The notes under the pieces: generated by a model | What the model was told of the DNA's origin: nothing | What the model saw: the letters and a program-made list of their open reading frames with translations, nothing else | Databases searched by the model: none | Made by a program: the position numbers and the translations under genes | NCBI GenBank assembly: GCA_013003715.1 | Contig: JABDIN010000046.1 | Span: 1 to 64,000, forward strand | From: Desulfobacteraceae bacterium | GTDB lineage: Bacteria > Desulfobacterota > Desulfobacteria > Desulfobacterales > Desulfosarcinaceae | DNA: 64,000 nt | Direction: 5' to 3' | Part shown: positions 24,780 through 33,064 of the stretch, piece after piece | Layout: every line of letters starts with the position of its first letter | Position numbering within the stretch: the first letter of the stretch is position 1

Positions 24780-24869
24780 TCAGCGGACATACCTCAGGAG
24801 TGAAATGAACAGCAGCGCCATCCCCAGAATCAGTATGAACAACAACTGGTCCGGATAAAATTTTTTCAT
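24780..24869 (-). CDS. 29-residue membrane micropeptide coupled to lysC
   Basis: The ATG (24867-24869) overlaps the lysC stop codon as ATGA. The frame runs 29 codons to a TGA at 24780-24782. The peptide begins MKKFYPDQ, has one strongly hydrophobic segment of about 17 residues (9-25, rich in Leu, Ile, Phe) and ends RYVR. This is the plan of a small single-pass inner-membrane protein with Lys/Arg at both ends. The four-base overlap with a conserved gene is the classic arrangement for translational coupling. No function is known to me; it could be chance, but composition and position both argue against that. Confidence 0.55.
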   Translation of the reverse strand: MKKFYPDQLLFILILGMALLFISLLRYVR

Positions 24870-26095
24870 TTTTCTTCTTCGTCCCTGTCCAGACCAAATG
24901 CGGTGTGCAACACCCTTACCGCCAGTTCCGCGTATTTTTCATCGATGACGCAGGAAATCCTGATTTCGGACGTTGATATCATATGGATGTTGATGCCCTC
25001 ACGCGACAGGGTATTGAACATGACCGATGCCACGCCGGAATGATTTTTCATTCCGACCCCGATCACCGATACTTTGGCGATATTATCATCCCCGAATACA
25101 TCTTCAGCGCCAATCCGGGCAGCCACTTCCTTTTCAATTTCCAAGGCCTTTTTATAGGCTGTTTTGGGTACGGTGAAGGTCAGGTCCGTCTGACCCTCCG
25201 CCCGTGTATTCTGAATGATCATGTCCACAATAATACCGGCTTCCGCTATGGGTGTGAAAATTTTTGCGGCGATACCCGGCTGATCCGGCACTTTTTTAAG
25301 GGTGATACGCGCTTCGTCCTTGTTATGTGTCACACCGGATACCACGAGCTGTTCCATACCGGAATCTTCGTTTACCACCATTGTGCCTTCCTCCTGGGAA
25401 AAAGATGACCTCACATGAAGGGGGATGTTATATTTTTTGGCGAAACCCACCGACCGTATCTGCAGAACCTTTGCACCGAGACTCGACATATTCAGCATTT
25501 CATCATAAGAGATGTACGCCAATTTTTGAGCTTTTTTACACACATTCGGATCGGCGGTGTAGATACCATCCACATCAGTATATATTTCACATGTATCCGC
25601 CGTCAGGGCTGCCGCTATGGCCACCGCCGAGGTGTCGGATCCACCTCTTCCGAGGGTGGTGATATTGCCCTTGATGTCCGTCCCCTGAAACCCCGCCACA
25701 ACGACGATGTTGCCTTTTTGCAGAAGGTCCTTGATGCGACCCGCCCCGATTTCCAGGATCCGTGCATTGCCGTAATCACGGTCAGTCACCACCTCGGCCT
25801 GGTGTCCCATCAGGGATTTGGCCGGATAGTTCATGGATGTCAGCATCATGGCCAGCAGCGCTGCCGTGGTTTGTTCGCCGGTGGCCAGTAGAACATCCAG
25901 TTCCCTGGGATCGGGATTGTTGGTGATGCCATGGGCCATGCTGATGAGTCCGTCCGTAACACCGGCCATAGCCGAGAGAATAACCACCACCTGGTTTTCT
26001 TTCTCATATGTCGATATCACGCGATGGGCGACATTTTTAATCCGTTCAAGATCGGCAACGGATGTTCCGCCATATTTTTGAACGATTAAGCTCAT
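24866..26095 (-). CDS. lysC: Aspartate kinase
   Basis: The first enzyme of the aspartate family (Lys, Thr, Met, diaminopimelate). The N-terminus 'SLIVQKYGGTSVADLERI' carries the kinase KYGGTS motif; 'TTLGRGGSDTSAVAIAAAL' and 'EIYTDVDGIYTADP' complete the kinase domain (about 1-250). Two ACT domains (about 265-400) would give feedback control by lysine and/or threonine, and 'SGVASVMFNTLSREGINIHMISTSEIRIS' is the family's C-terminal ACT. I start at ATG 26095 (409 aa), as the four residues before it lack support and GAGGAT precedes. It lies 34 bp after tsaE, the next-to-last gene of the long minus operon. Confidence 0.96.
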   Translation of the reverse strand: MSLIVQKYGGTSVADLERIKNVAHRVISTYEKENQVVVILSAMAGVTDGLISMAHGITNNPDPRELDVLLATGEQTTAALLAMMLTSMNYPAKSLMGHQAEVVTDRDYGNARILEIGAGRIKDLLQKGNIVVVAGFQGTDIKGNITTLGRGGSDTSAVAIAAALTADTCEIYTDVDGIYTADPNVCKKAQKLAYISYDEMLNMSSLGAKVLQIRSVGFAKKYNIPLHVRSSFSQEEGTMVVNEDSGMEQLVVSGVTHNKDEARITLKKVPDQPGIAAKIFTPIAEAGIIVDMIIQNTRAEGQTDLTFTVPKTAYKKALEIEKEVAARIGAEDVFGDDNIAKVSVIGVGMKNHSGVASVMFNTLSREGINIHMISTSEIRISCVIDEKYAELAVRVLHTAFGLDRDEEEK

Positions 26096-26129
26096 GCACA
26101 TCCTCACTATTCAGATTCAATACGGATGA

Positions 26130-26615
26130 TCAATCGAAGTTCCCGTATGTCTTTAGCAGATTCGTTGCGTTCAGTCCATATGCCTTTATCACAATGTGGC
26201 GGGCTTCCTTATCCTGAATGGTGAACTCAATCACCAGGCGGCCGGCGGGCAGGTCGCTTTCGTGCATCCGATCCGGCCACTCGACCAATACAACGGCATC
26301 GGAGACCAGGATGTCGTACAAGCCGATTTCCTCAATATCGGCGAATCCGGACAATCGATATAGATCCACATGGCAAAAAGTATATTTGCCGGGATATTCA
26401 TTTATCAGGGTATAGGTCGGGCTGGTGACATAATACTCAGGCGGAACGGATATCCCTCTGGCAAATCCCTTGGCAAAAGTGGTTTTACCGCTGCCGAGAT
26501 TCCCGCTTAATGCGATGAAAAGCCCCGGATAAGCCAAGCCGCCCAATTTTTCACCAAAAGCGGTGGTTTCCCCGGGGGAACTCAATTTTATGTGCCGTGT
26601 TTCGATGATGTTCAT
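26130..26615 (-). CDS. tsaE: tRNA threonylcarbamoyladenosine biosynthesis ATPase TsaE
   Basis: An ATPase of the complex making the t6A modification of ANN-decoding tRNAs. Its 161 residues include the Walker A 'LSGNLGSGKTTFAKGFARG' (about 36-54), the family 'SPTYTLINEY' and 'HVDLYRLSG' segments, and 'VVLVEWPDR', the usual TsaE end motif. It lies 85 bp after nnrD and 34 bp before lysC. The nnrD-tsaE order is common in bacteria. Confidence 0.95.
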   Translation of the reverse strand: MNIIETRHIKLSSPGETTAFGEKLGGLAYPGLFIALSGNLGSGKTTFAKGFARGISVPPEYYVTSPTYTLINEYPGKYTFCHVDLYRLSGFADIEEIGLYDILVSDAVVLVEWPDRMHESDLPAGRLVIEFTIQDKEARHIVIKAYGLNATNLLKTYGNFD

Positions 26616-26700: not shown

Positions 26701-28290
26701 CTATCCTAAGGGCAACCTCTTCGGCAAGCCTGCCGGCTGGTGGGGTTTGAGTGATTTCAGGCATTCCGGTATATGGTCCATTACCTCTCTTGCGGTGTAG
26801 CCGATTAGACCCTTGGATACAGCCAGAGCGTCAGCAGACGAGCCATGGAGGAATACAGCGGTGTGGACGGCTTTTTCGATGCCGCCGCCCTGGGCGATCA
26901 GGCCTGCAATCAATCCGGTCAGGACATCACCCATGCCCCCGGAAGCCATACCTGAATTACCTGTGGGATTGATAAATATGCGGCCGTCCGGATGGGCTAC
27001 GATGGTCCTTGCGCCCTTCAATACAATAAGGTGGTTGATTTTTTGTGCGAATTCCCGCGCACTTTTAATTCGATCCTGTTGAATGCGGGTGATTGATTCG
27101 CCGGTCAGCCGTGCCATCTCGCCGGGGTGGGGGGTGAGAACGGCTTCGGTTTTTAATTTTCCCAATAAATTCAAATGGCCGGCCAACAGATTCAAACCGT
27201 CTGCATCTATCACCAGGGGCAGGGATGTCTCAACCACGAGTCGCCGGACCAATTGGGCGACGGAATCACCATGTCCGAGTCCGGGTCCCAATGCAAGGCA
27301 CTGTTTCCCTTCGCAAAGCTGCAGAATTTTATCCAGCCCCTTTAGGCTCAAGGTACCGTTTTTGCTCTCCGGCAGGGGTTCTGTCATGGGTTCGATCACC
27401 CGGCTCTCGAGTGATGGATTTAAATGTCGGGGAATGCCCAGGGTTACCAGGCCTGCCCCGGATCGAACGGCGGTCATTGCCGTCATGGCGGCCGCACCGG
27501 ACTTGCCGGTGGAACCGGCAATTATCAACACATGCCCGGTGTTGCCCTTGTGGGCAATGGGCGTTCGATGGGGCATGTGGTTTTTGACATAATTGTCGGT
27601 GATCAGAAATTGTCCGGGCCCCACCGTTTTTCTCATCATGGCGGGGATGCCGATATCCACAACTTCCAATTTGCCGGTGTGGGTGACGCCCGGGTAGACC
27701 ACATGCCCGCATTTGGCAAATGCAAATGTCGCTGTGGTGTCGGCATTGATGCATATGCCGCAGGGCTGCCCCGTATCTGAATTGAGGCCCGAGGGAATAT
27801 CCACAGAAAAGACCGGTTTACCGGCGTCATTGATAAATTGGATGACCTTTTTGAAGAATCCCCGGACCATCGATGTCAAGCCTGTACCCAATATGGCGTC
27901 TATCCAAATATCCTGTTGCTGTAGCTCGTCCATGGCGGTGCGAAATGCTTCAGCATCGGGGATGATCGCCATCGGTACACCCAATCGTTCCAGAAGCGTG
28001 AAGTTCGCTTGAGCATCCCCAGTGAGTTTTTCTTTACCGGCAAATAAAAAAACCGTCACGGAAATCTTCTTCTCAAACAAATAGCGGGCTATTACAAACC
28101 CATCACCACCGTTATTACCGCGACCGGCGGCGACGCCCACCCGCCTGCATGATGCCTGAGGATTATTGTTTAGGAATACGGCCGTGGCACCGCGCCCTGC
28201 GTTTTCCATCAACACCCGTCCCGGAATACCGAACTGATCAATGGTATCGCGATCCATCCGCTGCATTTCTTCGGCCGTCACAATATACAT
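26701..28290 (-). CDS. nnrD: Bifunctional NAD(P)H-hydrate epimerase / ADP-dependent NAD(P)H-hydrate dehydratase
   Basis: A metabolite-repair enzyme (529 aa) restoring hydrated NADH and NADPH. The N-terminal YjeF_N epimerase (about 1-215) shows 'GRGNNGGDGFVIARYLFE' and 'DAILGTGL'. The C-terminal carbohydrate-kinase-like dehydratase (about 235-515) shows 'HKGNTGHVLIIAGSTGKSGA', 'LTPHPGEMARLTG' and 'NSGMASGGMGDVLTGLIAGL'. The start at ATG 28290 is chosen because the conserved 'YIVTAEEMQRMD' begins there and GGGAAGGG lies upstream. It sits between the PdxJ-like gene and tsaE. Confidence 0.94.
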   Translation of the reverse strand: MYIVTAEEMQRMDRDTIDQFGIPGRVLMENAGRGATAVFLNNNPQASCRRVGVAAGRGNNGGDGFVIARYLFEKKISVTVFLFAGKEKLTGDAQANFTLLERLGVPMAIIPDAEAFRTAMDELQQQDIWIDAILGTGLTSMVRGFFKKVIQFINDAGKPVFSVDIPSGLNSDTGQPCGICINADTTATFAFAKCGHVVYPGVTHTGKLEVVDIGIPAMMRKTVGPGQFLITDNYVKNHMPHRTPIAHKGNTGHVLIIAGSTGKSGAAAMTAMTAVRSGAGLVTLGIPRHLNPSLESRVIEPMTEPLPESKNGTLSLKGLDKILQLCEGKQCLALGPGLGHGDSVAQLVRRLVVETSLPLVIDADGLNLLAGHLNLLGKLKTEAVLTPHPGEMARLTGESITRIQQDRIKSAREFAQKINHLIVLKGARTIVAHPDGRIFINPTGNSGMASGGMGDVLTGLIAGLIAQGGGIEKAVHTAVFLHGSSADALAVSKGLIGYTAREVMDHIPECLKSLKPHQPAGLPKRLPLG

Positions 28291-28345
28291 GTCAGACCCT
28301 TCCCTCAGTTGCATTTTTTAGTGCGCGAAACCCGCAATGGTTCGT

Positions 28346-29065
28346 TCAAACACCCCTGACAAAACTCGCTATCTCACTGACAGCCGCCTCCATTCCCTTG
28401 AGAATCGCCCGTGCGACAATGCTGTGTCCCACACTGAAATTGTCGATTTCCCTGAGTCCACTGAAGGCTTTCATGGTTTTATAGGTCAATCCTTGCCCCA
28501 AATTGACATTCATCCTCAGTTTGCGGGCAAGATTGGCTGCATTTGAGATCTGAGAAAACGCCTGTTCCCGGCTGAAACCTGAGCTTGCCCGATTATAGGC
28601 GCCGACATGCAATTCAATTGTACCGACATTCAATTGGTGAGCCAATTTGACTTGCTCCAGTTCCGCATCAATTGAAATTCCGACGGGAATGCTATTGTCC
28701 TGAAGTGTGGACGCGGTTTCGGCGATATCTTTTTTGTGAACAACCAAGTCCAAGCCGTTTTCGGGCAAGGTTTCGTGACCGGTTTCCGGGATCAGAACGA
28801 TCAGGTCTGGCCGCAGATCCAGCGCAATGCCGACCATCTCTGAAGTTGGACGCATGTAGATAACCAACTGGGTATGCACAACCTTTCTCAGCGACCTGAT
28901 ATCACGCTCGCGACTCTGCAAATGCACTTCATCCAGTTGCATGGCAATGCCGTCCGCACCGGCCAATTCCGCCAGGACAGCGGCGGCAATCGGATCGGGT
29001 GTCCGGGCATGGCAGGCCTCTCTGATTCTGGCGATATGATCAACACTCACGATGATTCCGGCCAT
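28346..29065 (-). CDS. PdxJ-like protein lacking the canonical active-site residues
   Basis: The 239-residue TIM-barrel scaffold is clearly that of pyridoxine 5'-phosphate synthase ('DPIAAAVLAELAGADGIAMQL', 'IELHVGAY', 'GLTYKTM', 'SVGHSIVARAI'). The phosphate-binding end (HVGAY, SVGH) is kept. Against recalled E. coli PdxJ the catalytic residues are replaced: His45 by Q43, Arg47 by D45, His52 by Q50, Glu72 by Y70 and His193 by Q191. It therefore probably does not make pyridoxine phosphate, or does so by a different route. It is nested in the phoH-ybeY-nnrD-tsaE operon, a usual place for this gene. Annotation as active pdxJ would be unsafe. Confidence 0.8.
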   Translation of the reverse strand: MAGIIVSVDHIARIREACHARTPDPIAAAVLAELAGADGIAMQLDEVHLQSRERDIRSLRKVVHTQLVIYMRPTSEMVGIALDLRPDLIVLIPETGHETLPENGLDLVVHKKDIAETASTLQDNSIPVGISIDAELEQVKLAHQLNVGTIELHVGAYNRASSGFSREQAFSQISNAANLARKLRMNVNLGQGLTYKTMKAFSGLREIDNFSVGHSIVARAILKGMEAAVSEIASFVRGV

Positions 29066-29220: not shown

Positions 29221-29655
29221 TTAGGAAATCAGCTTGGTCAATTCATTACTCTTTCGTTTCATCTCAGCTGCCTGCTGCTCAGAATGAATATGATCATAAC
29301 CGAACAAATGCAATATGCCATGAACCAGCAGTTGATCAAATCTTTCTTCGAATTGCAAACCTGCGTCCGTGGCTTCCATTTCGCAAGTATCCAGGGATAT
29401 AACCACGTCTCCCAGAAGATTCGGCTCAATATCAGCGTATTCGCCTTCCTGCATGGCAAACGCAATAACATTGGTGGGACCGGTTCGGTTCAAATAGGCC
29501 GTATTAAGTTCGGCAATTTGTGTATCATCGGCTAAAACTATGGAAAGCTCGCCCTCAGGACAATCCAAGGCGTTTAAGACGGCCTCTGCTTTCGTCCTCA
29601 CGATTTCTGTCGGCATCTCGTGTCGTGTCTGGCGGTTGTTTATCAGCACCTGCAT
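29221..29655 (-). CDS. ybeY: rRNA maturation endoribonuclease YbeY
   Basis: A zinc-dependent endoribonuclease for rRNA processing and ribosome quality control. The metal motif is 'VHGILHLFGYDH' (HxxxHxxxxxH), preceded by 'ELNTAYLNRTGPTNVIAFAM', the conserved substrate strand. I start at ATG 29655 (144 aa), where the family N-terminus begins ('MQVLINNRQ') and GGAAAGGG precedes. This makes its first 101 bases overlap the end of the PgpH-like gene in another frame. Upstream in-frame starts would lengthen the overlap. The PdxJ-like gene follows after 155 bp. Confidence 0.92.
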   Translation of the reverse strand: MQVLINNRQTRHEMPTEIVRTKAEAVLNALDCPEGELSIVLADDTQIAELNTAYLNRTGPTNVIAFAMQEGEYADIEPNLLGDVVISLDTCEMEATDAGLQFEERFDQLLVHGILHLFGYDHIHSEQQAAEMKRKSNELTKLIS

Positions 29656-32044
29656 CTTTTCCCTTTCCATTCCCCCTTGCCGGACTGTCGGCATATTCAA
29701 TCCGGTGATGGTGGATACCATTGAGAATTTTATTAAAACTTCTGGCAATATTATGTAAATCTTTCAGGGTTAATTCGCAACTATCCAACTGTCCGTCGGA
29801 AAATATCTTATTTACCAGATTTTGAACCAGTCCCTGGATTCGTGATGGCGTGGGGTTGTCCAGTGTTCTGGATGCCGCTTCAACGACGTCCGCCAGCATC
29901 ACCAGACCGGCTTCCTTGGTTTGGGGTTTGGGACCGGGATACCGGAAATCTTCTATTTTAACCTGATCCTGACCACGCTGTTGTTTCGCTTTTTCATAAA
30001 AGAAACTGATGAGGCTTGTACCATGGTGTTGTTCAATGGTATCCGTGATCGCCTTTCCCAGCTTGTTCTTCTTGGAAATTTCCACCCCATCCCTCACATG
30101 GGCAATGAGTATGAGGCTGGACATGGACGGGGCCAGTTTATCGTGCTTGTTTTTGCCGTTGGTTTGATTTTCAATGAAGTACAGTGGTTTATTGATTTTG
30201 CCGATATCGTGGTAATAACCGCAAACTTTTGCCAGAAGCGGATTGGCGCCAATATCGGAAGCTGCGGCTTCAACCAGTGAACCTACAATCACCGAGTGAT
30301 GGTAGGTGCCCGGGGCCTCGATCATCAACCGTCTTAAAATGGGTCTGTCCAGATTGGCAAGCTCGAGCAGGGTGATATCGGTGGTATATTGGAACGCGAT
30401 TTCAATGATCGGCGCAACACCAATGGTCACAATTCCAGCGCCGATTCCGGCCAGAAATGCAAAAATGCTATCCCATAATATTGACAATCCGCTGTATTGC
30501 GATAGATAAAAATCAATGGCGATGGCCAACACCACATTCAATGCACCGATTTTGGCACCGGCTTGGATGATGGCCTTGCGATCCCGGCAATCTTTAATCC
30601 AATACCCTGCCATGACACCATTGAGAAGAAAATAGGTGAATATTTCGAATCGGTTTTGCAGGAGGATGGCTGCACTGGCAGCAAGCACAATCGCGAATGC
30701 GGTGGCCACCTCAAGTCCCAGGAACAGGCAAACCAGCATCACGCCTGCGGAGATGGGAATACCGTATTCAAGGGATGCGGCCGGTATTGAAAATGACGAG
30801 GCGACCCCCCTTGACTCTGCAAGGATAGCTGTGAACTGTATGATGATCAGGAATGCCGATAATGCCGTGACCAAAAAAAGCAGGTTCTTGTTATGGTTTA
30901 AATTAAACGATCGGTGCGACTTCAATTGCAATGAATAGATGGATAGGAACAAACAGGTCAGAATGGTCAATACCCCAAACAGCGTTGGAAACACTTTGCT
31001 TCGCTTGGACTGGTTCTGCATGGCTTTCAATTTCAACAATTGAAACTCGGTCACCCGCTCTCCCTCACGAAGAATCATCTCTCCGGCCTTGATTTTATAG
31101 AGCACTGGTTTGATATCCTCAGCCGAAATTTTCTTGCGTTCCTCGGTGCCGTTTCGGTTCAGGCTTATATTGGGTTGAATCAACGACTGGGAAAATTCCA
31201 CAATCAGGTTTACCACTTCGTAGCTGCCGTTTTTAAGCAATGGATCCCCGACGACCCTTACCATGGTTTTTGCCTGGTCCGGGCTGTAGAAACGTCTTAG
31301 ATTGCGAATTTCCGCCTCGGTTTTAGTGCCTACATCTCTCAGCGATATTCCTTTTTCCGCCTCCTTGAGTAGAATTTCCTTGTTAGCGACAACACCATTT
31401 TTCATGATTTCGGTGACAATTTTTTTTATCAAATCGGATATTCCGGTCGAAAATTGTTCCTTGACCAGAATGGTGTAAGCGCCATGGCTTACCGGTATGC
31501 CGAGTTCCTGTTCAAAATACTCCTTTTTAGACCAGATCAGGTCCGTTCGTGCGATGGTTTTAGCATCCTCTCTTGCGGCCTCCGCCAGATCCACCCGGGT
31601 AGTCCCGGTTGACTGATCCGGGAGTGCTATGGATTCATCCGGTGTGGTTCCGGGGACATTCTCTTCAGCGGGCGGCATTGAAGATGGGGCGGGATTTTCA
31701 GGTGTTGTCTCGAAAAAACCCTGCAATTCAGAGAATGATCTGGATACGCGCTCGTTAATCTTCAGGAATAGCACCGGATCGTAATCATATACGGTGAGAA
31801 CCGCTCCAGCCGCCTGTTCCCTGTTGGATCGAGTCGCTGCCTCATCTTCTACAAAGAAGTCTTCCACGGCTTTGACATCCCGATCCGCCACATCGCCCAT
31901 GTCATAGGTGAACTCTTTCACAGCGATACTCGGGTAGATGATGAGCGTGAACAAGATGAGTAGAAATGCCAGCAACACCCATCGGATTTGCATATTCGAA
32001 ATTAGCATTGTGTTCAGCGGTGTGGTTTTCCGATTGATTTTCAT
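29555..32044 (-). CDS. 7TM-HD (7TMR-HDED/7TMR-HD) phosphohydrolase, PgpH-like
   Basis: An 829-residue inner-membrane protein. One N-terminal helix (about 20-40) is followed by an extracytoplasmic 7TMR-HDED domain (about 45-330), seven helices (about 350-570) and a cytoplasmic HD domain. The HD motifs are 'GTYHHSVIVGSLVEAAA' and 'CGYYHDIGKINKP', with a later 'VMLADVVEAASR'. Homologues such as Listeria PgpH hydrolyse cyclic di-AMP; the nucleotide here is unproven. The charged C-terminal tail (from about 785) is encoded in the region shared with ybeY and may have arisen by loss of an earlier stop codon. It lies 48 bp after phoH. Confidence 0.9.
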   Translation of the reverse strand: MKINRKTTPLNTMLISNMQIRWVLLAFLLILFTLIIYPSIAVKEFTYDMGDVADRDVKAVEDFFVEDEAATRSNREQAAGAVLTVYDYDPVLFLKINERVSRSFSELQGFFETTPENPAPSSMPPAEENVPGTTPDESIALPDQSTGTTRVDLAEAAREDAKTIARTDLIWSKKEYFEQELGIPVSHGAYTILVKEQFSTGISDLIKKIVTEIMKNGVVANKEILLKEAEKGISLRDVGTKTEAEIRNLRRFYSPDQAKTMVRVVGDPLLKNGSYEVVNLIVEFSQSLIQPNISLNRNGTEERKKISAEDIKPVLYKIKAGEMILREGERVTEFQLLKLKAMQNQSKRSKVFPTLFGVLTILTCLFLSIYSLQLKSHRSFNLNHNKNLLFLVTALSAFLIIIQFTAILAESRGVASSFSIPAASLEYGIPISAGVMLVCLFLGLEVATAFAIVLAASAAILLQNRFEIFTYFLLNGVMAGYWIKDCRDRKAIIQAGAKIGALNVVLAIAIDFYLSQYSGLSILWDSIFAFLAGIGAGIVTIGVAPIIEIAFQYTTDITLLELANLDRPILRRLMIEAPGTYHHSVIVGSLVEAAASDIGANPLLAKVCGYYHDIGKINKPLYFIENQTNGKNKHDKLAPSMSSLILIAHVRDGVEISKKNKLGKAITDTIEQHHGTSLISFFYEKAKQQRGQDQVKIEDFRYPGPKPQTKEAGLVMLADVVEAASRTLDNPTPSRIQGLVQNLVNKIFSDGQLDSCELTLKDLHNIARSFNKILNGIHHHRIEYADSPARGNGKGKDAGADKQPPDTTRDADRNREDESRGRLKRLGLS

Positions 32045-32092: not shown

Positions 32093-33064
32093 TTATGACG
32101 CGTCCTGTTCTTCATAAGCCATGATAATCTTTTGTACCAATTTATGGCGTACGACGTCATTTTTTGAAAAAAAGACAAATTGAATCCCTTCGATATCATT
32201 AAGAATGTCCTTGGCTTGAATAAGTCCCGAAGGCTTTCCTGCCGGCAAATCCGTTTGTGTGATATCCCCTGTAATCACCGCTTTAGAGCTGAAACCAATC
32301 CGGGTCAGGAACATTTTCATCTGCTCGGATGTCGTATTCTGCGCTTCATCTAAAATCACAAATGAATCGTTCAAGGTGCGTCCCCGCATAAATGCTATGG
32401 GCGCAACCTCAATGATCCCCTTCTGCATCAATCCGGCCACCTTTTCGAACCGCATCATATCGTGGAGCGCATCATATAGCGGTCGCAGGTAAGGATCTAC
32501 CTTGTCTGCAAGATCTCCCGGTAAGAAACCCAATGCTTCGCCGGCTTCCACCGCGGGCCGCGTGAGGATGATGCGGTCGACTTCTCCCTTGGTCAGGGCG
32601 GCCACTGCCATGGCCATGGCAAGGTAGGTTTTACCTGTCCCGGCCGGACCGATGCCAAAGACGATGTCATTATTCCGCATGGCATCGATATAGTCCTTCT
32701 GGGCCGGACTTTTAGGGGTAATCGCTCTTTTTTTGGATGTGACAAAGACGGTATCCATGAAAATATGCTTCAAATCCACTCGGTGGTCTTCGCTCAGCAC
32801 CCTGATAGCATAATCGACATCTTTGGTGTAAACAGGGTAACGTTCTTTGAGCAAACCGTATAATTGTTCAAGTACGTTCTTCGCCAGTGCCGCCTCAATG
32901 GTGTCGCCCTTGATATATAAGGAGCTTCCGCGTGTATGGATTGTCACATCGATGGTATCTGAGATACGTTTCAAATGGCTGTTATGTTCGCCGAACAATT
33001 GCCGCGACAATTCTACATCCGAGAAGGTGACCTTGATCCGTTTATTGTCTGTGATTTCGCCCAT
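32093..33064 (-). CDS. phoH: PhoH-family ATPase (PhoL/YbeZ type)
   Basis: A 323-residue P-loop protein with an N-terminal KH-like RNA-binding domain and a C-terminal ATPase. Walker A is 'GIGPAGTGKTYLAMAMA' (about 137-153) and Walker B is 'DSFVILDEAQNTT'; 'GEALGFLPGDLADKVDPYLRP' is a family signature. It partners YbeY in ribosome maturation in other bacteria. It is first gene of the phoH-PgpH-like-ybeY operon. Its start faces cvpA across a 283-bp gap. Confidence 0.93.
   Translation of the reverse strand: MGEITDNKRIKVTFSDVELSRQLFGEHNSHLKRISDTIDVTIHTRGSSLYIKGDTIEAALAKNVLEQLYGLLKERYPVYTKDVDYAIRVLSEDHRVDLKHIFMDTVFVTSKKRAITPKSPAQKDYIDAMRNNDIVFGIGPAGTGKTYLAMAMAVAALTKGEVDRIILTRPAVEAGEALGFLPGDLADKVDPYLRPLYDALHDMMRFEKVAGLMQKGIIEVAPIAFMRGRTLNDSFVILDEAQNTTSEQMKMFLTRIGFSSKAVITGDITQTDLPAGKPSGLIQAKDILNDIEGIQFVFFSKNDVVRHKLVQKIIMAYEEQDAS

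Follow-up and report, generated by a model that had tools for sequence, protein, structure and literature searches.

The locus examined here raises the question of why a bacterium should carry, within a conserved run of genes, a pdxJ whose product lacks most of the active-site residues of pyridoxine 5'-phosphate (PNP) synthase, and what, if anything, this protein still does. The gene lies in a window of 64,000 nucleotides (the whole stretch of DNA analysed, from contig JABDIN010000046.1 of a Desulfobacteraceae bacterium), and an earlier note made from these letters had proposed that the loss of catalytic residues pointed to a new function and not to decay. The features on which the following account relies are collected in Table 1.

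Table 1. Genes of the pdxJ neighbourhood and codons of the five substituted residues named in the earlier note (window positions; residue numbers of the window protein, with E. coli equivalents in brackets).
Feature	Position	Strand	Basis
PdxJ-family gene, predicted pseudoenzyme	28346..29065	(-)	ORF, Pfam PF03740, active-site residues, fold
nnr (NAD(P)H-hydrate epimerase/dehydratase), next downstream	26701..28314	(-)	Pfam YjeF_N + Carb_kinase, synteny
ybeY, next upstream	29221..29748	(-)	Pfam YbeY, synteny
7TM-HD phosphohydrolase gene, same conserved run	29555..32044	(-)	Pfam, synteny
phoH-like gene, same conserved run	32093..33064	(-)	Pfam PhoH, synteny
tsaE, same conserved run	26130..26615	(-)	Pfam TsaE, synteny
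lysC (amino-acid kinase + ACT domains), same conserved run	24866..26107	(-)	Pfam, synteny
Q43 codon (H45)	28937..28939	(-)	alignment
D45 codon (R47)	28931..28933	(-)	alignment
Q50 codon (H52)	28916..28918	(-)	alignment
Y70 codon (E72)	28856..28858	(-)	alignment
Q191 codon (H193)	28493..28495	(-)	alignment

The open reading frame encodes a full-length protein of 239 amino acids with the PdxJ fold. It matches the Pfam family PdxJ (PF03740) with 207 bits against a curated cut-off of 24.5, aligns without gaps across residues 6-233 of E. coli PdxJ, to which it is 36% identical, and finds only pyridoxine 5'-phosphate synthases (eight of eight) among its matches to sequences of solved structures. An AlphaFold2 model built on a 32-sequence alignment (mean pLDDT 91, pTM 0.88) superposes on PdxJ crystal structures with an rmsd of 1.6-1.9, and the top seven VIA-align matches of this model are all PdxJ (Z 31.9-35.1), the eighth standing at 20.9. 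Only residues 96-100 fall below a pLDDT of 50, and these correspond to part of the active-site loop, which spans residues 95-105 in E. coli PdxJ (PMC10471632). Among the NCBIfam models, NF003625 was passed (215 vs 190), while TIGR00559 (164 vs 192.75) and four further models were failed. NF003625 is an equivalog model for pyridoxine 5'-phosphate synthase, and its acceptance of a protein with missing catalytic residues means that automatic annotation may mislabel such genes.

We read 14 positions from the alignment, which we take to form the active site of the enzyme, following the numbering of UniProt and Garrido-Franco (E. coli numbering is used from here on). Of these, H45, E72 and H193 are presumably the catalytic residues of PNP synthase (EC 2.6.99.2), and N9, R20, R47, H52 and T102 presumably bind its substrates. 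In the window protein the three catalytic residues are replaced by Q, Y and Q and the five substrate-binding residues by S, C, D, Q and L, giving eight substitutions in 14 positions (N9S, R20C, H45Q, R47D, H52Q, E72Y, T102L and H193Q), with D11, H12, E153, G194, G215 and H216 kept. The alignment bears out all five replacements that the earlier note had listed, of His45, Arg47, His52, Glu72 and His193 by Gln, Asp, Gln, Tyr and Gln; its phrase "all catalytic residues replaced" leaves N9, R20 and T102 unmentioned and is slightly too strong, as six of the 14 positions, including E153, are retained. Nor have the residues merely shifted, since the motifs flanking them align on both sides and the model superposes on the crystal structures. 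Compared with E. coli PdxJ (PF03740; 1M5W/1HO1), the window protein shares the fold, the length and the residues D11, H12, E153, G194 and G215-H216, but differs at the eight substituted positions and in belonging to a genome without PdxA.

This last difference concerns the vitamin B6 pathway of the host. The window genome is 97% complete, contains a single PdxJ match, namely the gene described here, and gave no match to the PdxA family (PF04166). The earlier note had proposed a search for a second, canonical pdxJ or for a pdxS/pdxT pair, and it is the pair that was found: pdxS and pdxT lie adjacent on contig C68 and exceed the cut-offs of the NCBIfam models TIGR00343 and TIGR03800. Given one PdxJ devoid of catalytic residues, no PdxA match and adjacent pdxS and pdxT, the organism most likely obtains its B6 through PdxST. 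The pair (L213, C68:167000-173000) adjoins an opposite-strand gene with GntR and aminotransferase domains, a MocR-like regulator.

To place the window protein among its relatives we compared 77 PdxJ sequences, its own included, from all 41 matched genomes of a first search for relatives and from 36 genomes chosen from a survey of the order; among the survey genomes whose main match is below 290 bits, this choice passed over G126 and the matches in G125, G130, G147, G186 and G169, which are partial, and it also passed over most high scorers. Sequences with 14 of 14 residues were classed as intact (n=31) and those with at most 12 as degenerate (n=43). The 43 exclude G078 and G160 (L155, L156; 11/14), a divergent subtype with no ybeY or nnr found alongside and with H45, E72 and H193 intact, and G027 (13/14, 63% complete) counts towards neither class and was treated as intact in the trees and in the outer-helix comparison. 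The divergent subtype carries N at D11, K at H12 and D at G194, and G160 possesses PdxA.

The two classes keep different company. PdxA is present in 30 of the 31 genomes with an intact sequence, the sole one without a PdxA match (G021, 14/14) being 86% complete, and PdxS in none of them. Among the 43 genomes with a degenerate sequence, 37 have no PdxA-family match and six have a PdxA-family protein classed as PdxA2-like, where "genuine PdxA" and "PdxA2-like" are classes set by match length and score; PdxS was found in 25 and not matched in 18, several of which are more than 90% complete (e.g. G097, G005 and G031). Across the 194 genomes of the order survey, PdxS occurs in 48 and PdxJ in 124, and in each of the 15 genomes that have both the PdxJ is degenerate.

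No replacement pattern common to all 43 degenerate sequences was found. The earlier note had envisaged a clade sharing its Q-D-Q-Y-Q pattern, which occurs in the window protein alone among the 77 sequences; no such clade emerged from 79 sequences of named genomes either, and the nearest of the 77 is that of G031, with Q-Q-S-A-Q. In the 12 sequences of families f8 and f29 (L134-L143, L023, L024), R20, H45 and E72 are kept, K stands at N9 in all 12 and R at H193 in nine, and these residues suggest that the two families are perhaps an intermediate stage or have a changed activity of their own. The scan of named genomes covered the best 80 loci, out of 374 relatives, and at one of the 80 (L114) every PdxJ ORF fell short of 150 aa. 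Among the 79 ORFs so obtained, 72 have 14 of 14 residues, a truncated one has 12 of 12 readable positions, and six have 4-11 of 14, all of them in records of Desulfobacterales, Desulfobacteraceae or Deltaproteobacteria; among these best 80 of 374, the degenerate state is rare.

The degenerate state has arisen more than once in the relatives. In a tree built without the 14 active-site positions and without G078 and G160, the intact or degenerate state changes six times by parsimony, with two changes forced by starred branches (seven and three, respectively, in an earlier tree that included G078 and G160). The test rejects a single clade of all 43 degenerate sequences (p-AU 0.0005, with a log-likelihood 112.6 lower), within the limits set by the long branches of G005 and G099 and by a quick search. 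In the G013 lineage the loss looks recent, because its sequence (12/14) is nested among intact enzymes with short branches and lacks only N9 and E153.

Despite these losses the gene has stayed in its place. The window gene lies in the same neighbourhood as other Desulfobacterales pdxJ, and the order ybeY-pdxJ-nnr was found in 35 of the 39 degenerate loci scanned, the same order as at intact loci; the scan covered seven named neighbours, such that an unlisted intervening gene would escape notice, and the degenerate loci of G103, G065 and G137 were too short for it. The other four loci, all from family f69 (L146, L148, L150 and L152), read ybeY-pdxJ-tsaE, which rules out nnr as an obligatory neighbour of pdxJ. 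The best nnr of the f69 genomes is located elsewhere and is just 37-39% identical to that of the window. Among 21 relatives that lack PdxJ and have a close nnr (48-56% identity), 18 (L175, L177-L186, L188-L194) show ybeY then nnr with no intervening PdxJ match, from which it follows that pdxJ is dispensable. That metabolic genes, pdxJ among them, are associated with ybeY and era has been called enigmatic (PMC10582724), and nnr has been linked with B6 (PMC5938422).

Evidence that the degenerate genes are maintained comes from 12 independent close pairs, compared with 14 intact pairs; none is from the window's own genus, and half of the 12 are from f8 and f29, which have lost few residues. Summed pN/pS was 0.150 in degenerate and 0.141 in intact pairs. 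At the 14 active-site positions the values were 0.124 vs 0.017, and outside them 0.151 vs 0.150, while dN/dS ranged over 0.041-0.134 in 10 degenerate pairs and 0.015-0.17 in 12 intact pairs, with two more pairs saturated in each class. In recent evolution, the pocket has been under average constraint and the remainder of the protein as constrained as before. When divergence was expressed relative to five neighbour proteins, the ratio was 1.33 for degenerate PdxJ (28 loci) and 0.60 for intact PdxJ (22 loci), a difference of about 2.2-fold, and overall constraint is therefore relaxed. No internal stop was present among the PdxJ matches of the relatives' search and the order survey, though synonymous sites are saturated between many pairs. 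Given intact frames, a position kept between ybeY and nnr, and the close-pair pN/pS values, simple decay is unlikely. The case for a pseudoenzyme under selection consists of residue loss in 43 of the 77 related sequences and purifying selection in the 12 pairs; for the window gene itself we infer selection from these relatives, its genome being the only one of its genus in the comparison.

The distribution of changes along the protein indicates where this constraint resides. Eleven of the 14 active-site positions changed 7-18 times on degenerate branches and 0-1 times on intact branches (tree lengths 15.7 and 19.7, respectively), the exceptions being D11 (6 vs 1), G194 (4 vs 2) and G215 (0 vs 0). 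Such variability at these 11 positions runs counter to a conserved new active site, and a pocket that degrades differently from lineage to lineage argues against one new reaction. Fewer changes on degenerate branches were seen at residues 81, 177, 59, 127, 145, 122, 170, 138, 180 and 142, ten sites picked from the same data, of which only 81 and 177 pass Bonferroni correction (about 236 sites). By the secondary structure of the model all ten lie in or beside helices, and several are charged. At 59, 81, 127, 138, 142, 145, 177 and 180, 16 or more of the 20 local enzymes, which span little divergence, agree on one residue, but these sites are variable in 17 sequences from farther out in the order and in 13 others. 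The window protein itself departs from the consensus at four slow sites (S for G127, L for P138, N for D177 and N for K180). Our reading of these patterns is that the outside of the barrel would be under a clade-level constraint older than the loss of chemistry.

Taking these observations together, we think it probable that the window gene is a PdxJ pseudoenzyme formed in situ and retained for a non-catalytic, probably surface-mediated role. It would be the ancestral pdxJ at its ancestral operon position; the supply of B6 by PdxST or from outside would have freed the pocket from selection, and the gene would be kept by another role of the PdxJ scaffold, one that needs no catalysis. With less assurance, this role may be exerted through the outer helices alpha2-alpha6, several residues of which are held in the degenerate proteins and earlier in their nearest catalytic relatives, and the protein would then bind some partner or serve it as a scaffold, or work through its oligomer, and not by chemistry in the barrel. 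We advance only tentatively the further idea that the outer-helix function was gained in one branch of the Desulfobacterales while PdxJ was still an enzyme, and that independent catalytic losses after replacement of the B6 route exposed this function, which would have been the sole keeper of the gene since. If true, the same moonlighting role may exist in catalytic PdxJ and may have a bearing on why pdxJ is linked to ybeY, era and nnr. Partial distance correlations with the operon neighbours, as a guide to a partner, were weak (0.03-0.33), with nothing clear among them. Part of the earlier proposal of a new function and not decay stands, given the lost catalytic residues, the presence of pdxS and pdxT instead, and purifying selection in relatives. 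A new or different reaction finds no favour with pockets that are variable at 11 of 14 positions, whereas regulatory binding, the other option it had offered, is possible, with the outer surface a likelier site for it than the pocket.

Other explanations account for part of the same evidence. The protein could be a neofunctionalised enzyme or ligand sensor whose pocket binds another phosphorylated compound, which we regard as unlikely: the window protein retains D11, E153, G194 and G215-H216, G215 is invariant and G194 and D11 are mostly kept across the degenerate set, and new pocket residues recur within f8 and f29 (K9 in 12 of 12, R193 in 9 of 12), but the retained glycines may be structural, H12, R20, E153 and H216 change 7-15 times on degenerate branches as against 0-1 on intact ones, the 43 sequences have no replacement pattern in common, and confidence in the model is lowest at the active-site loop (96-100). 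There is a comparably small chance that the gene is in slow decay, its purpose gone with the pathway and its deletion still to come. The 18 of 21 PdxJ-less loci without pdxJ between ybeY and nnr, the quicker divergence relative to neighbours, the relaxed pocket and the recent-looking case of G013 (12/14) would all suit such a course; internal stops are nonetheless absent despite saturated synonymous sites in many pairs, degenerate and intact genes have the same pN/pS beyond the 14 sites, and the degenerate state is common to genomes of several families. That the ORF is a mere spacer coupling the translation of ybeY and nnr, by which it is flanked in 35 of the 39 scanned degenerate loci, is highly improbable, with the amino-acid sequence under selection and ybeY then nnr standing without PdxJ in 18 of 21 PdxJ-less relatives.

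Two further alternatives would leave the protein a part in B6 synthesis. It might be a partner of PdxST that has no catalysis of its own, in the way that PDX1.2 serves PDX1 in plants, although we judge this very unlikely: PdxS occurs in 25 of the 43 degenerate genomes, but the 18 without a PdxS match include several more than 90% complete, and dependence on PdxS is accordingly not universal. The analogy is further strained by the family to which PDX1.2 belongs, which we take to be that of PdxS and not of PdxJ, and by its presumed status as a paralog retained beside active copies; the window PdxJ is the only copy, with its residues missing. PDX1.2 is still what we would call the nearest analogue, as a B6 pseudoenzyme that regulates B6 synthesis without catalysis and is maintained in a clade (PMC6829848). 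It is scarcely credible, finally, that the degenerate proteins are working PNP synthases with unusual residues, supplied in some genomes by a PdxA2-type dehydrogenase. Such a supplier might be sought in the six of 43 degenerate genomes with a PdxA-family protein. The TIGR00557 pdxA model accepts four of these proteins, NCBIfam drawing no line between the two types; the window genome and 36 others have no PdxA-family match, however, and the window protein is without H45, E72 and H193. Three of the six genes lie beside an SBD_N/NBD_C sugar-acid kinase, presumably the typical neighbour of PdxA2; a DctM transporter adjoins the fourth, an amidase the fifth, and the sixth (G020) has nothing informative beside it, neighbours which would back a PdxA2 identity clearly in three cases, weakly in two and not at all in G020. 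PdxA2 is itself capable of the PdxA reaction (PMC9997740).

The preferred reading of a retained, non-catalytic PdxJ has consequences for how genomes are interpreted. In a 2023 survey of B6 pathways, pdxJ serves as the signature gene of the DXP-dependent route, and ten genomes, including that of Desulfosarcina ovata, are reported to have both B6 routes, the DXP route being possibly incomplete (PMC9997740). Like the window genome, these ten combine pdxJ with pdxS/pdxT, but in the survey's passages on them pdxJ is taken as a sign of the DXP route, with no mention of residue loss (PMC9997740). The D. ovata pdxJ may be a degenerate copy, which would be a likely explanation for the possibly incomplete route. 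These bacteria, relatives of sulfate reducers, would be misread by surveys in which pdxJ stands as evidence of B6 synthesis, and with pdxJ as signature gene and NF003625 accepting a protein with the catalytic residues missing, B6 capability will be mis-predicted in the clade. A search by title and abstract, with most subscription journals outside its reach, found no description of a PdxJ pseudoenzyme. Parallel catalytic losses with retained selection offer a natural experiment that separates the chemistry of the protein from its other roles, and further roles of PdxJ become a directly testable question.

That the pseudoenzyme stands in for YggS, a protein of PLP homeostasis, was also considered and rejected, as TIGR00044 matches in 45 of 46 genomes, the one miss (G022) being 73% complete. 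In a survey of the phylum, PdxJ was found in 125 of 148 genomes. Judged by scores, with residues read just for G311, the only low full-length match, at 263.7 bits, comes from an additional copy in G311, once the window and the partials (G310, G349 and small pieces) are set aside. This second PdxJ (L204) carries H45S and H52Y, and the other copy of that genome has all 14 residues.
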